Virus record (IMG/VR): IMGVR_UViG_3300035695_000009
Coordinates: 1 to 42,301 of that record
Source of the DNA: a virus
Strand: one strand, 5' to 3'
Length of the DNA: 42,301 nucleotides
Position numbers and translations under genes: made by a program. The notes beneath the pieces are model-generated. The model did no database searches, had not been told where the DNA came from, and worked only from the letters and a program-made list of their open reading frames with translations. This document shows, piece after piece, positions 2,366 through 30,779 of this stretch (the first letter of the stretch is position 1; every line of letters begins with the position of its first letter).

Positions 2366-3205
2366 ATGACTGACGAAGAAAAACTGAAACAGTTACAGGA
2401 CCAAATAGCTGATTTGAATGGAAAAATTTTTGATGCATCTCAAACTTTTATTTCATTAGGAAATAAAAATCAGGAACTCCAATCTGAAATAGATGGTTTA
2501 GAAAAAACGAAAACTGATTTATCCGTTCAGGTATCTGATCTTAAAAATCAGTTGGATGCAGCTTTACAAAGTCTATCTAATGTTTCAAATGAAAAAATAA
2601 AAGAGTTAGATGGAAAATTAAAAGAAGTTGATTCGAAACAGATTGAATTAGATAATTTAATTCAGAATAATTTGAATGAGAGTAAATTATTATCTGATCG
2701 AGAAAAAGAATTAGACCAGAAAGAACAGGATTTAAAAGATGAATTAAATAGTACTGAAACACACCAACAGGAAATTGAAATTCACGAAAATGAATTAACT
2801 AAGTCTGATAGTGAACTTAATGACGCCCGAGCTAAATTTAATGAGGAATTAAATGAGTTCGAAAAAAAATATGCTCAGTATGAAAGTGATTTAGCTAATT
2901 TTTCAACTCTTAGAGATCAATTGATTTCAGATCAAAATCAATTAAATACCGATCGTGCAGTTTTACTAACAGATCAAACTACACTCCAAACACAAACCGC
3001 ACAACTTAATGCTGATCAGGAAAACTTAAAAAAAGAGCAAGCTGATTTACTGATAAAGCAAAATGATTTATCACAGAAACAAACTGAATTGGAAAGTGCA
3101 AGTGAAGATTTAGCAGCGAGAATTAAAAGAATTGAAGTCCGTGAGTTACGGGTAACAAAAGCTATTCAGGAGAAGCAGCTTGATCAAGAACTTATTAATA
3201 AATAG
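2366..3205 (+). CDS. Long coiled-coil protein
   Basis: The protein has 279 aa and is almost entirely heptad-like coiled coil, with dense Glu/Lys/Gln/Asn/Asp and Leu/Ile at regular spacing (repeated segments such as LNADQENLKKEQADL and LNTDRAVLLTDQTTL). There is no signal peptide. AGGGGGAAGA precedes the ATG, one base after the previous stop. Its last 26 bases overlap the start of the exported repeat protein. Possible roles are a fibre shaft, an assembly scaffold or a chaperone for the neighbouring long repeat protein; the sequence alone does not decide. Confidence 0.8.
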   Translation: MTDEEKLKQLQDQIADLNGKIFDASQTFISLGNKNQELQSEIDGLEKTKTDLSVQVSDLKNQLDAALQSLSNVSNEKIKELDGKLKEVDSKQIELDNLIQNNLNESKLLSDREKELDQKEQDLKDELNSTETHQQEIEIHENELTKSDSELNDARAKFNEELNEFEKKYAQYESDLANFSTLRDQLISDQNQLNTDRAVLLTDQTTLQTQTAQLNADQENLKKEQADLLIKQNDLSQKQTELESASEDLAARIKRIEVRELRVTKAIQEKQLDQELINK

Positions 3206-6110
3206 TTTATGTTTTCTATTATTGATTTCAAATGCATGGGCTGATTGTGATGTCAGTATCGACGGATATTCTGTTTGTACTGACGATCTTCTTAATTTTA
3301 ATGGTATAAATCCCGCACCGTCAGTTTCTAATTCTGGACAAGCGAGAATGTATTTTGATCTTATGTCCGGAAAATTAAAATGTTCTGAAAATGGCGGAGC
3401 ATTTACCAATTGTGTAGGTAGTGGTGGATCATCTTCTTTAGGCGGGTTGACTGATGTGAGTGATGCAACCGCAACTGCCGGTCATTTATTGATTGCGAAT
3501 GGTGCCACATGGGCCAGTAAAGCTATGAGTGGAGATTGTTCGATCACGAGTGCCGGGGTTATGACTTGTGCGGGCAGTAATGCAACAGTTCCATATAATA
3601 CACTTAAAACACCGACGACAAATACAGGAATAAATTTTGGATCGTTTACGAATACATGGACTTCAGCAGCGGGTAATGCGACATTTTTTACAATTCATGG
3701 GTCGTCTGATTTTATAGTACAGGGAGATGGTGATGTTATTGCACCTTCGTTTACGGGGGCATTAATTGGTAATGCAACAACAGCAACGTCTTTAGCTGGA
3801 AATGGTACAAACTGCTCATCCGGAAATTATCCCCTTGGGGTAGATGCAAGCGGAAATTCAGAAAGTTGTACAGCAGCTCCGACAGAATGCTCATCATCGT
3901 CTTGTACGTTAAATAGTGGTGATACTGCTACAACACAAGCGGCATCAGATAACTCTACAAAAGTAGCGACGACAGCTTATGTAACGACGGCGATTTCTAA
4001 TATTACTCCAACTGTTGCTTACGACCATATTACTGCTCCGACGACAAATGCGGGTATAAATTTAAGTACATTTAATTCTATTTGGACCTCGACAACGGGA
4101 AGTAATACCTGGACTTCCACAACTGGAACGAACACTTGGACCAGTGGCGTTACTGCTGGTGATTATTTTACTATTAGTGATAGCGGCGCTTTTAATTCTA
4201 GTACTTCGGTATTAAAATTAAGTCGATCAAATGGTAATCCGACTGGTGGATCAATGTTAGGTATATTTAATTCTGATACGGATGTCGCGAGTATTCAAGC
4301 CCCGAATTTTATTGTTACACAGACGGGGGGAATAAAATCATCATCAAACACATCCGGATCTATTTTAGTTGCGGATGGCACCTCATTTAATCCTGTTGTG
4401 ATGAGTGGTGATGCAACAATTTCATCAACAGGATCATTAACTCTTGCTAATACAACTGTATCTGCAACTTCTTATACAAACACAAATTTAACAGTTGATT
4501 CTAAAGGTCGCATTACATCAGCTTCTAATGGAACAAGCGGGATTTCTTCAGTCGCCTACGATCAAATTACTGCACCAACGACTAATGCGGGTATCAGCTT
4601 AACTACATTTAACTCAATATGGACCTCAACGACAGGCAGTAACACCTGGACCTCAACCACAGGAACGAATACTTGGACGAGTGGGGTTACGGGAGGAGAC
4701 TATTTTACAATCTCAGACAGTGGGGCGTTTAATAATACAACGTCTATCTTAAAGTTAAGTCGTTCAAATGGAAATCCTACTGGCGGAGCTATGCTCGGGA
4801 TAGTCAACACAGATACAGATGTTAAGTCTATTGATGCGCCTAACTTTTCAGTTAATCAAGGCGGGAACGTTACGATGGCTGGTGATTTAACAGTTAGCGG
4901 TGATGATATATACATGGCGACTAACACGGCAGGTAATCTATTGATTGCAAACGGCACAAGCTATAAACCTATTGCCATGTCGGGGGCTTGCACAATTACA
5001 AGTGCAGGAGTGATGACTTGTAGTGGGAATACTGTTTCAACTCAATACGATCGCATTACTGCCCCGACGACAAATGCAGGTATAAATTTAAGTACATTTA
5101 ATTCTATTTGGACCTCAACAACGGGTAGCAACACCTGGACTTCGACGACGGGAACGAACACCTGGACAAGCGGCGTTACAGGAGGAGATTACTTCACGAT
5201 TAGCGACAGCGGAAGTTTTGATGCTAGTAGTTCAGTCTTAAAACTAAGTCGATCTGTTGGTAACCCGACGGGTGGCGCTATGCTTGCTATCGTCAACTCT
5301 GATACAGATGTTAATAGTATTCAAGCGCCAAATTTCACTGTTACTCAAACAGGCGGAATTAAATCATCTTCTAATACGTCAGGTTCAATCTTAGTTGCAA
5401 ACGGTACAACGTTTAATCCCGTCGTGATGTCAGGATCTTGTACTGTTTCATCGAGTGGTGTGATGAGCTGTACTGCAAGCTCAACTCCAACAGCTTTTGA
5501 TCAGATTACTGCGCCAACAACAAATGGCGGGATTAACTTAGCTTCGTTCAACTCAACGTGGACAAGTACAACAGGAAGTAATACTTGGACAGCCTCGACG
5601 GGTACGAATCTCTGGACAAACTCGGCTACAACAGGTGATGGGTTTACAATTTCGGATAGCGCCACAAGAACAAGTGGTTCAGTGTTAAAAGTTTCAATGC
5701 CGACTAACTCAACTGGCGGTTCAGCATTAATAGCTTTAAACAATGTTTACACCAGTACGTTATATGAGATAAACGGTGGGAATTTTACAGTTGATGGGTT
5801 AGCTAATGTTTCAGGAAAAACTTTAGCTTTATCGGGAACAGGAACCCCCGGATTATCAACTTGCGGGACTTCCCCGACGGTTGCGGGTACAAATGCAGCG
5901 TTTACAGTAACAACAGGAAGTGGAAGTGTCGGAAATTGTACAGCGACTTTTGCTCAACCGACGGGCTGGACAACAGTTCCGACTTGTATACCTGGATGGG
6001 AATCTGGTCAAGCATTGACTTCGACATGGACAAGTACGGCAACAAATATCATTTTTAATCAAAACGCAATGGGAAGTAAAAAAGTAGATATTTTATGTAT
6101 TGGGCATTAA
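3180..6110 (+). CDS. Exported repeat-rich fibre-like protein with Sec signal peptide
   Basis: The protein has 976 aa. It starts at a TTG with AGGAGA about 6 bases upstream, inside the end of the coiled-coil gene. Residues 1-22 are a clear Sec signal peptide ending ISNAWA, with likely cleavage before DCDV. The body is Ser/Thr/Asn/Gly-rich beta repeat of the type seen in phage fibres: motifs such as GDCSITSAGVMTC and NCSSGNYPLGVDASGN, then four long repeats from about residue 280 (see the repeat entry). Paired cysteines recur, which fits an oxidising compartment. The C-terminus (TWTSTATNIIF ... ILCIGH) resembles a small terminal beta domain. A signal peptide on a fibre-like phage protein is odd: it implies export to the periplasm or cell surface rather than assembly in the cytoplasm. 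Confidence 0.85.
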   Translation: MIKNLLINSLCFLLLISNAWADCDVSIDGYSVCTDDLLNFNGINPAPSVSNSGQARMYFDLMSGKLKCSENGGAFTNCVGSGGSSSLGGLTDVSDATATAGHLLIANGATWASKAMSGDCSITSAGVMTCAGSNATVPYNTLKTPTTNTGINFGSFTNTWTSAAGNATFFTIHGSSDFIVQGDGDVIAPSFTGALIGNATTATSLAGNGTNCSSGNYPLGVDASGNSESCTAAPTECSSSSCTLNSGDTATTQAASDNSTKVATTAYVTTAISNITPTVAYDHITAPTTNAGINLSTFNSIWTSTTGSNTWTSTTGTNTWTSGVTAGDYFTISDSGAFNSSTSVLKLSRSNGNPTGGSMLGIFNSDTDVASIQAPNFIVTQTGGIKSSSNTSGSILVADGTSFNPVVMSGDATISSTGSLTLANTTVSATSYTNTNLTVDSKGRITSASNGTSGISSVAYDQITAPTTNAGISLTTFNSIWTSTTGSNTWTSTTGTNTWTSGVTGGDYFTISDSGAFNNTTSILKLSRSNGNPTGGAMLGIVNTDTDVKSIDAPNFSVNQGGNVTMAGDLTVSGDDIYMATNTAGNLLIANGTSYKPIAMSGACTITSAGVMTCSGNTVSTQYDRITAPTTNAGINLSTFNSIWTSTTGSNTWTSTTGTNTWTSGVTGGDYFTISDSGSFDASSSVLKLSRSVGNPTGGAMLAIVNSDTDVNSIQAPNFTVTQTGGIKSSSNTSGSILVANGTTFNPVVMSGSCTVSSSGVMSCTASSTPTAFDQITAPTTNGGINLASFNSTWTSTTGSNTWTASTGTNLWTNSATTGDGFTISDSATRTSGSVLKVSMPTNSTGGSALIALNNVYTSTLYEINGGNFTVDGLANVSGKTLALSGTGTPGLSTCGTSPTVAGTNAAFTVTTGSGSVGNCTATFAQPTGWTTVPTCIPGWESGQALTSTWTSTATNIIFNQNAMGSKKVDILCIGH
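4017..5760 (+). repeat. Four long tandem repeats inside the exported fibre-like gene
   Basis: Units begin near 4017, 4554, 5043 and 5492 (about residues 280, 459, 622 and 772). Each opens with an ITAPTTNAGI-type motif, then SIWTSTTGSNTWTSTTGTN, then a DYFTISDSG block and an LSRS.GNPTGG block. The fourth unit is shorter and more diverged. Amino acids are far better kept than bases: the same words are written with different synonymous codons in each unit. Confidence 0.85.
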
Positions 6111-28806: not shown

Positions 28807-29667
28807 ATGCCCGCTGAAGCCCCTGTTATAGAACCTGTTGTTGTACCGCAATCCGGTGGGGAACCCGGAAGCGCTCAAGCTAAGGTTGTGATTCCAGATC
28901 CGGCGAATGCCCCAAGAAAGGCTCCGGCGGCCTCTACATTCAATCTTCCTGATGGATACAAAGATAAACCCTATTTGAAGGGTGTTGATTCAATGGATAA
29001 GGTTTTTGCGATGCTGGATGGGGCGCAGACATTGATTGGTAAACGTCCCGCGGGAATCCCGGCACCGGATGCACCGGCTGAAGAATGGGCTAAATTTTAT
29101 GATGCTGCGGGCCGGCCAAAATCTGCAACAGAATATCAGTTCGAAGGACAAGATAAAGCCGATCCGAAATTTTTACCGAAAGTTCAAGAAGTATTTTATA
29201 AACACGGTTTAAATGCGGCTCAAGCAAAAGGGGTTTTTTCTGATATTAATTTAGCATTATCTGAATTTGCGAAACAACAGGGTGTTGATATTCAGCAACA
29301 AAATACTGATTTTGATGCGTTAGGGACAAAAGTTTTCGGTGCGCAGCGGGATCAAATTTTATCTTCAATGAAAGATTTAATCGGAAAACATGTTCCGGTT
29401 GAAATGAAAGATGCGTTAGGAAAACTTCCGAATGAGAGTTTGATGATTCTCGCCGGAGTTTTAAATAATGTTAGTAAAGCATATATAAAGCCCGACGGAC
29501 CGCCGTCAAGTTCTCCGGCGGGTACAGCATTAACACCCGCGGATATTAGTGCGAAAGGCCGTGAGTTAATGGCGTCGGAGCCGTATCTAAATGTTAGACA
29601 TCCTCAACATGATGCGACAGTTAAAGCTGTTCGGGAATTATATGCACAATTATCACCAAAAAAATAA
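28807..29667 (+). CDS. Scaffold-like capsid assembly protein
   Basis: The protein has 286 aa. A Pro/Ala-rich N-terminus leads to PDGYKDKPYLKGVDSMDKVFAM, then a conserved EEWAKFYDAAGRPKSATEYQF block, a long helical middle and an ISAKGRELMASEPYLN C-terminus. Position directly before the capsid gene, composition and helicity all fit the internal scaffold that shapes the procapsid. AAAGGAGA lies before the ATG. Confidence 0.82.
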   Translation: MPAEAPVIEPVVVPQSGGEPGSAQAKVVIPDPANAPRKAPAASTFNLPDGYKDKPYLKGVDSMDKVFAMLDGAQTLIGKRPAGIPAPDAPAEEWAKFYDAAGRPKSATEYQFEGQDKADPKFLPKVQEVFYKHGLNAAQAKGVFSDINLALSEFAKQQGVDIQQQNTDFDALGTKVFGAQRDQILSSMKDLIGKHVPVEMKDALGKLPNESLMILAGVLNNVSKAYIKPDGPPSSSPAGTALTPADISAKGRELMASEPYLNVRHPQHDATVKAVRELYAQLSPKK

Positions 29668-29669
29668 TT

Positions 29670-29692
29670 AAAATTTATATTGCATAAATTTT
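29670..29692 (+). terminator. AU-rich hairpin with T-run after the scaffold gene
   Basis: AAAATTTAT (29670-29678) and ATAAATTTT (29684-29692) form a 9-bp stem with a 5-base loop, followed by a T-rich run. The stem has no G-C pairs, so it would terminate weakly at best; it may serve as an RNA-end stabiliser or processing site before the capsid gene. Confidence 0.4.
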
Positions 29693-29730
29693 TTATTGTT
29701 TTAGTATTTTGTTGTAAGACAGATTCAGGT

Positions 29731-29830
29731 AGACCGCGAGGTTCTGATAGTTGATGACACTCTCATCCGATTGGTCTGCGATAAAAGACCATGATAGCGT
29801 CCGTTGCAATTAAGACGGGGATCGTTGATC
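29731..29830 (+). promoter_or_regulatory. Hairpin-rich leader of the capsid gene
   Basis: Five short hairpins follow each other in a 220-base gene-free gap: AGACC/GG(T)TCT with a GCGA tetraloop (29731-29745), GATGA/TCATC (29753-29767), TGGTCT/AGACCA (29772-29791), CCGTT/GACGG (29801-29818) and GATC/GATC (29820-29830). AGACC near 29731 could also pair with GGTCT near 29773, giving an alternative fold. The capsid start lies 59 bases downstream, with AAAGGGGG in front. Possible roles are processing, stability or translational control of the capsid message. Confidence 0.5.
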
Positions 29831-29888
29831 GACTAAGGTTTTAAAACTTAATCATTAACTTTTTCTATTTTGCAAAGGGGGCCTAGTC

Positions 29889-30779
29889 ATGGCTAATGAA
29901 ATTGATGCAGCACTTATCACGCAGTTTTCAGATATGGTTCATATTAAAGCGCAGCAGATGAAATCTCGTTTGAGACCATATTTTAATATTCGTAAAATGA
30001 CGGGCGATATTTGGGCGTATGATGGTATCGGGATTGTTGAAGCTAGTGAACAGAATGCTCGTATTTCACCGGTTGTTTTTAATTCAATTGATCACTTAAG
30101 ACGTAAAATTACGCGTCGTCGTTTCGTTGTTACATTACCCCTCGATTCTTCTGATGTCCGCGCAGTTTTAACAAATCCTCAAAATGATTATGCTGGTGCT
30201 TGTACTCGTGCGATTGAACGTGTGTTTGATCGTGTTGGTATTGAATGTGCATTTGCTTCTGTATCCACTGGAAGGGATTTCTCCACGTCAGTGTCAGCGT
30301 CAACAGATGGGGTTTTAACCATCAATGCGACAGCAGGTTTAACTTATGAAAAACTGATTGAAGTTAAACGTAAGTTCTATAATGCTGAAGTCGGAAATGA
30401 TATGCAGGAAAGATTTGTTTTTATCTGCACCGGCGATGAAGAATCAGCTATGATGCAGGAAACAGCGTTGATCAACAGTTTGTATTCTCAGCAATATGTT
30501 GTTGATCGTGGGGAATTAACCCGCGCTGTCGGTATTGATGTAGTTCGTTATGGTGGAAGTGTAACGAATCCTTTGTTGTCAGTTACAAGCGGTGTGCGTG
30601 ATTGTATTGCCGCTAGTGAACGCGGGATTGTTTATGGGATGAGTTTGGATCTGTCTTTAAAGATTCAAGAACGTCCTGATTATGTCGAGACAACTCAGGT
30701 TCAGGCTATCATTCAATTAGGTGCTGTTCGTACTGAAGGTGTTTTAGTTCAGAAAGTTCAGACGACGGTGCTTACTTAA
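29889..30779 (+). CDS. Major capsid protein
   Basis: The protein has 296 aa: an N-terminal helix (LITQFSDMVHIKAQQMKSRL), then IDHLRRKITRRRFVVTLPLDSSDV, YEKLIEVKRKFYNAEVG, and a C-terminal beta-rich part ending TEGVLVQKVQTT. Length, position after the scaffold and the LPLD-DV segment fit the capsid family of BPP-1-like and related podoviruses with an HK97-type fold. A strong ribosome site (AAAGGGGG) fits high expression. Confidence 0.87.
   Translation: MANEIDAALITQFSDMVHIKAQQMKSRLRPYFNIRKMTGDIWAYDGIGIVEASEQNARISPVVFNSIDHLRRKITRRRFVVTLPLDSSDVRAVLTNPQNDYAGACTRAIERVFDRVGIECAFASVSTGRDFSTSVSASTDGVLTINATAGLTYEKLIEVKRKFYNAEVGNDMQERFVFICTGDEESAMMQETALINSLYSQQYVVDRGELTRAVGIDVVRYGGSVTNPLLSVTSGVRDCIAASERGIVYGMSLDLSLKIQERPDYVETTQVQAIIQLGAVRTEGVLVQKVQTTVLT

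Follow-up and report, generated by a model that had tools for sequence, protein, structure and literature searches.

A conserved twin-bulge RNA leader, predicted by comparison, in front of the capsid gene of aquatic phages

The gene-free stretch that precedes the major capsid gene in the virus record IMGVR_UViG_3300035695_000009 (IMG/VR; 42,301 nt, hereafter "the window", meaning the whole stretch of DNA analysed) is a structured RNA that many distantly related aquatic phages also carry in front of the same gene. Two of its hairpins, A and C, hold the same irregular module in inverted orientation, and the letters of both modules change together, which suggests a single trans-acting reader. No Rfam 15 family matched any of the leaders tested, either at gathering threshold or in permissive searches, where only sub-threshold chance matches or none appeared, and no published description was found in the literature searched, from which most subscription papers were absent. 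Regulatory leader RNAs are a known kind, but this one, with twin inverted and co-evolving modules on capsid mRNA, appears to be a new cis-regulatory RNA family. Its function and its reader are inferred from sequence comparison alone, and it probably works as a switch on how much capsid protein is made.

The capsid leader and its conserved hairpins

The window contains a T7-like podovirus structural block, with terminase, head-tail adaptor, a gene in the scaffold position, a phrog_3437 major capsid and tail genes, whereas two ORFs (279 and 976 aa; 2366-6107) next to a tail-fibre-like protein have no PHROG match at E 0.001. The 221 nt between the scaffold-position gene and the capsid gene contain no ORF of 50 aa or more, and neither a tRNA nor a tmRNA was found. 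The preliminary description had listed in this leader a 9-bp A/U hairpin, five short hairpins in a row (one of them with a GCGA tetraloop) and AGACC/GGTCT words allowing a second fold, and all of these features are present (Table 1). Nevertheless, the thermodynamic stability of the single leader is not beyond chance (MFE -49 kcal/mol, z = -1.1, with 28 of 200 shuffles as low), so the single sequence proves nothing and the evidence has to be comparative.

Searches with the capsid protein gave three relatives at 78-83% identity and then 47 loci, while a search of a bacterial genome collection with the capsid profile gave none. A gene-free leader of 124-285 nt sits at the same place in the IMG/VR relatives. 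In the branch of the window, formed by the window and the loci L001, L002, L003 and L007, the helix of hairpin A and the helices of hairpins 2, 3 and C recur with different letters that still pair. Hairpin A carries a GNRA loop in the window, L001, L002 and L003 (GCGA, GCGA, GAAA and GAGA, respectively), whereas hairpin 2 was not found in L007. The stems are conserved with compensatory changes in close and distant relatives, and there is no coding remnant. An RNAalifold analysis of a broad MAFFT alignment recovered only hairpin C, because loop lengths differ. The A/U repeat is the one listed feature without support, since its sequence is not kept in relatives, although some other leaders also have inverted repeats over promoter elements. 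Long inverted repeats flank the -10 box of the capsid promoter in Vibrio podophages (L074:1006-1057 and the L073 promoter region; TGTTCTCTCTATG / CATAGGGAGAACA), as a possible operator.

Table 1. Features of the capsid leader and its flanking genes (window coordinates; L001 and L002 are relatives from the window's branch)
Position	Strand	Feature	Details
28807-29667	+	Scaffold/capsid-assembly gene	phrog_3742, no function given; position as in annotated relatives
29668-29888	+	Gene-free capsid leader	Holds the whole element
29670-29692	+	9-bp A/U inverted repeat	29670-29678 with 29684-29692; over the -35 region; sequence not conserved
29680-29707	+	Sigma-70-like promoter, weak in the window	TTGCAT (29680-29685), 16-nt spacer, TAGTAT (29702-29707); aligned with TTGCGT-n17-TAGCAT in L001 and TTGACA-n17-TAATAT in L002
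29725-29747	+	Hairpin A	TCAG-GTAG-ACC[GCGA]GGT-T-CTGA; wobble G29729.U29743 plus bulge UAG (29730-29732); GNRA loop; AGACC in its 5' strand
29753-29767	+	Hairpin 2	GATGA-CACTC-TCATC; replaced by CATCG/CGATG, GACGT/ACGTC, CCCTG/CAGGG in relatives
29772-29791	+	Hairpin 3	TGGTCT-GCGATAAA-AGACCA; 3' arm is part of the strand complementary to the translation start
29787-29809	+	Anti-initiation strand	Pairs with 29870-29894 (TTGCAA/TTGCAA, CC/GG, CATGA/TCATG)
29795-29827	+	Hairpin C	TAGCG-T-CCGTTGCAATTAAGACGG-GGAT-CGTTG; same module turned round (wobble U29800.G29819, bulge GAU 29820-29822)
29824-29859	+	Hairpin D	GTTGAT/ATTAAC, A/U-rich; kept as GTTAAA/TTTAAC in L002
29874-29881	+	Shine-Dalgarno of the capsid gene	AAAGGGGG; 7 nt before ATG; mostly paired in the unconstrained fold
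29889-30779	+	Major capsid gene	phrog_3437, E 2e-35

A twin inverted module and its distribution

Hairpins A and C contain the same module in opposite orientation (5'-GG-[G.U or A.C wobble]-3-nt bulge-C/G-CC), so that in A the chain enters from the GG/CC side and in C it leaves from it. Although it can be read as a 4x1 internal loop (GUAG|U, AUAC|C, GGAG|U, GUAU|U, GGAU|U and others), it is better described as a wobble pair followed by a 3-nt bulge, usually N-A-N, and then a C-G pair. The first loop letter and the opposing letter are G.U or A.C, which are isosteric wobbles (with A protonated in the latter), in 15 of 15 leaders found by protein search, in both hairpins and with all four loop letters identical between hairpins, and in 25 of 32 and 36 of 41 cases when nothing was imposed at these positions.

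SIGNIFICANCE. A strict A-then-C pair was found in 27 of 57 leaders, in contrast to 0 of 1140 dinucleotide shuffles and 0 of 1088 windows of the same size elsewhere in the loci. On 17 leaders from outside the window's branch, 92% of the cells of the structure are paired, with 48 double-change cells, compared to 18 in shuffles and 3-19 in slid controls. Hairpin A and another hairpin, B, compete for the same letters, and both alternatives covary, whereas a closing helix GACG/CGTC around them was rejected, being absent in the ATAC and GGAG groups. A covariance model of these 17 leaders hits the window only once, at the capsid leader, which is the correct place but with a weak score (E = 0.72), and hits the close relative L002 at E 0.009; its 22 hits in 258 kb of other loci all lie at capsid leaders. 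The module pair occurs once in the window and once in the complete genome of phiVC8, where the capsid leader is also the only hit of the model.

The pair is present in Vibrio phages K300, phiVC8 and VP2 and, as an ATAC-type pair, in Vibrio phage 1.182.O, while the Alteromonas phage ZP6 has two bulged hairpins of the A type and Yersinia phage YeP5 has C-type modules only. Pattern scans of IMG/VR, in which many matches are due to chance, gave some 60 further contigs with hairpin C as GAG-U-CC[GNRA or small loop]GG-GUAG-CUC, hairpin A upstream and a capsid-like ORF downstream, mostly 38-61 nt away. Six representative downstream proteins, five of them from the GAGTCC-type set, are all phrog_3437. 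However, Pelagibacter phages of the HTVC010P type and vB_EcoM_APEC have the capsid but lack the module, under the same scan or by inspection, so it is not essential for this capsid; the Pelagibacter phage leaders (L063, L069, L071, L072, L076 and L080) hold other short hairpins and may be degenerate or different elements. In public annotations the RNA element has been covered by other features: the hairpin C region of phiVC8 (AGAGTCCGGA-AACGGGTA-GCTCAAATCG...; L441:5551-5601) was listed as a predicted promoter of the capsid ORF (PMC4802629), and a 90-bp ORF, encoding a 30-codon hypothetical protein, is annotated over the element in MW202485 (L443:20138-20227). Both look like annotation artefacts.

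Leaving aside three mis-assigned rows, G.U-type and A.C-type modules never mix within a leader, although the type changes several times on the capsid tree. The sharpest case is that of the loci L005 and L037, whose capsids are 96% identical and whose leader flanks are nearly identical, and yet both modules are switched, with six module substitutions. The structural genes of these two phages are mostly 80-96% identical up to the tail region, while most early-region and several tail genes do not match. This favours a reader encoded in the early region or by the host over the capsid or scaffold protein, although it does not prove it. In a comparison of L447/L448 with L443, two phages share structural genes (capsid 96%) but have largely non-matching early-region genes and divergent tail genes, which points to module swapping between hosts or replication cassettes.

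Promoter, translation start and possible mechanism

Promoter scores in the 76 nt before hairpin A average 9.7 in 42 non-redundant leaders, against 7.4 in control windows, and the -10 box usually ends 4-15 nt before hairpin A. In the window itself the aligned match is weak, and the best hit of the scan was another weak site. A terminator-like hairpin lies 4-22 nt after the capsid stop in 12 of 43 leaders examined, most of them strong, but not in the window. In the group with a GNRA-loop hairpin C, an inverted repeat (GGGCTA...TAGCCC plus T6; L328:3479-3512 and similar in L331, L343 and L356) spans the -10 box and hairpin A: in readthrough RNA from upstream it would be an intrinsic terminator, whereas in RNA started at the promoter only hairpin A can form, as a compact insulator between scaffold and capsid transcription. 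An intrinsic-terminator attenuator between promoter and gene was not found in the window, hairpin D being A/U-rich with a broken U run.

The inner part of hairpin C is more complementary to its own initiation region than to those of other leaders (own -9.9, swapped -6.5 kcal/mol, z = -8.2). When the 14 nt upstream of hairpin C and the start codon are included, z is -10 over 35 leaders, while a reversed control gives -1.9. In the window the unconstrained fold pairs 29790-29809 with 29870-29891, burying the Shine-Dalgarno and the AUG; forcing hairpin C opens most of the AUG, but only partly the Shine-Dalgarno, and costs about 7 kcal/mol. A second fold does exist, as the preliminary description had suggested, but the best-supported one is this pairing and not that of AGACC with GGTCT. 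The complementarity is found in the window's branch and the related hairpin-B group, but it is absent from the GNRA-loop leaders, which mostly lack a Shine-Dalgarno, and no strong match was found in phiVC8/VP2, so it cannot be the function of the whole family and would be a branch-specific use of a wider element. Both guesses of the preliminary description, an RNA controlling the processing, stability or translation of the capsid or else a hidden promoter, look right, in the sense that there is a conserved regulatory RNA with a sigma-70-like promoter in front of it, but the twin inverted bulge module and its wide distribution had been missed.

Taken together, the leader is best explained, with moderate confidence, as a conserved cis-acting RNA at the 5' end of capsid mRNAs started from a dedicated host-type promoter, for which a two-state switch is inferred. 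With hairpins 3 and C formed, the initiation region would be free, and with the long-range pairing it would be closed, although the swap test does not say which way the switch works. A trans-acting factor, more likely an early phage protein or a host protein than a virion protein, might read the twin modules and hold hairpin C (capsid ON), even though no reader protein was identified, or the mRNA might shift from the open fold made during transcription to the closed one. More tentatively, this could be a widespread and undescribed RNA-protein control system, in which a reader with evolving specificity times capsid synthesis and the two modules must change together when the reader changes. The RNA family would be attached to one gene in a large group of aquatic podophages (relatives infect Vibrio, Alteromonas and perhaps Yersinia, besides many uncultured hosts) and would make testable how phages without a recognised RNA polymerase set the level and timing of their most abundant protein, the co-evolving modules offering a handle for finding the RNA-binding factor.

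Other explanations seem less likely. Autoregulation by the capsid or scaffold protein, which would bind its own leader and shut translation when in excess, is in agreement with the location in front of the capsid gene only, with the precedent of T4 gene 32 (PMC3014915) and with the complementarity to the initiation region, but it is doubtful given that the module letters of both hairpins switched between phages whose capsids are 96% and scaffolds 84% identical, while their early genes do not match. A plain 5' stabiliser or processing site protecting the most abundant mRNA from decay, with no switch, is similarly improbable: the closeness of hairpin A to the -10 box and the discrete capsid transcript with a terminator in some relatives would fit it, but simple stabilisers need no conserved bulge letters, no wobble covariation and no concerted change in two hairpins. 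Slightly less likely still is a put-like antiterminator, that is, promoter-proximal bulged hairpins that bind host RNA polymerase and let it read through terminators in the late genes. There are indeed two promoter-proximal stem-loops with internal bulges, as in the HK022 put RNA, of about 70 nt and next to PL (PMC9378689), and no phage RNA polymerase was recognised among the window ORFs searched. Nonetheless, an antiterminator would defeat the terminator-like hairpins that follow the capsid gene in relatives, and the element sits close to the start codon, covaries with it and is found once per genome, only at the capsid gene. Finally, it is very unlikely that the conservation reflects DNA, such as an operator or promoter region with an incidental RNA fold. 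Although the promoter and inverted repeats lie just upstream, the conserved hairpins are downstream of the promoter and keep G.U and A.C pairs, GNRA loops and unequal bulges on one strand, which are RNA hallmarks.

Comparison with known leader RNAs

The T4 gene 32 leader (PMC3014915) is also a phage mRNA leader structure some tens of nucleotides upstream of the start codon, thought to govern the translation of one abundant protein, but there a pseudoknot nucleates repressor binding, while here twin bulged hairpins and a strand complementary to the initiation region are found, in front of a capsid gene and in unrelated podophages. The HK022 putL/putR antiterminator RNA (PMC9378689) shares the promoter-proximal pair of bulged stem-loops in a phage transcript, but appears to have another sequence and other internal features, its triplex and G35-A9 pair not having been seen here, as judged only by reading its description. 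Moreover, the present element is located only at the capsid gene, is tied to the start codon and, in several relatives, has a terminator right after that gene. Ribosomal-protein leader RNAs such as S15/rpsO (mentioned in PMC3014915) would likewise form mutually exclusive folds around a ribosome-binding site, selected by a protein that reads an irregular helix, although the gene regulated here would be a phage capsid gene and its reader is unknown.
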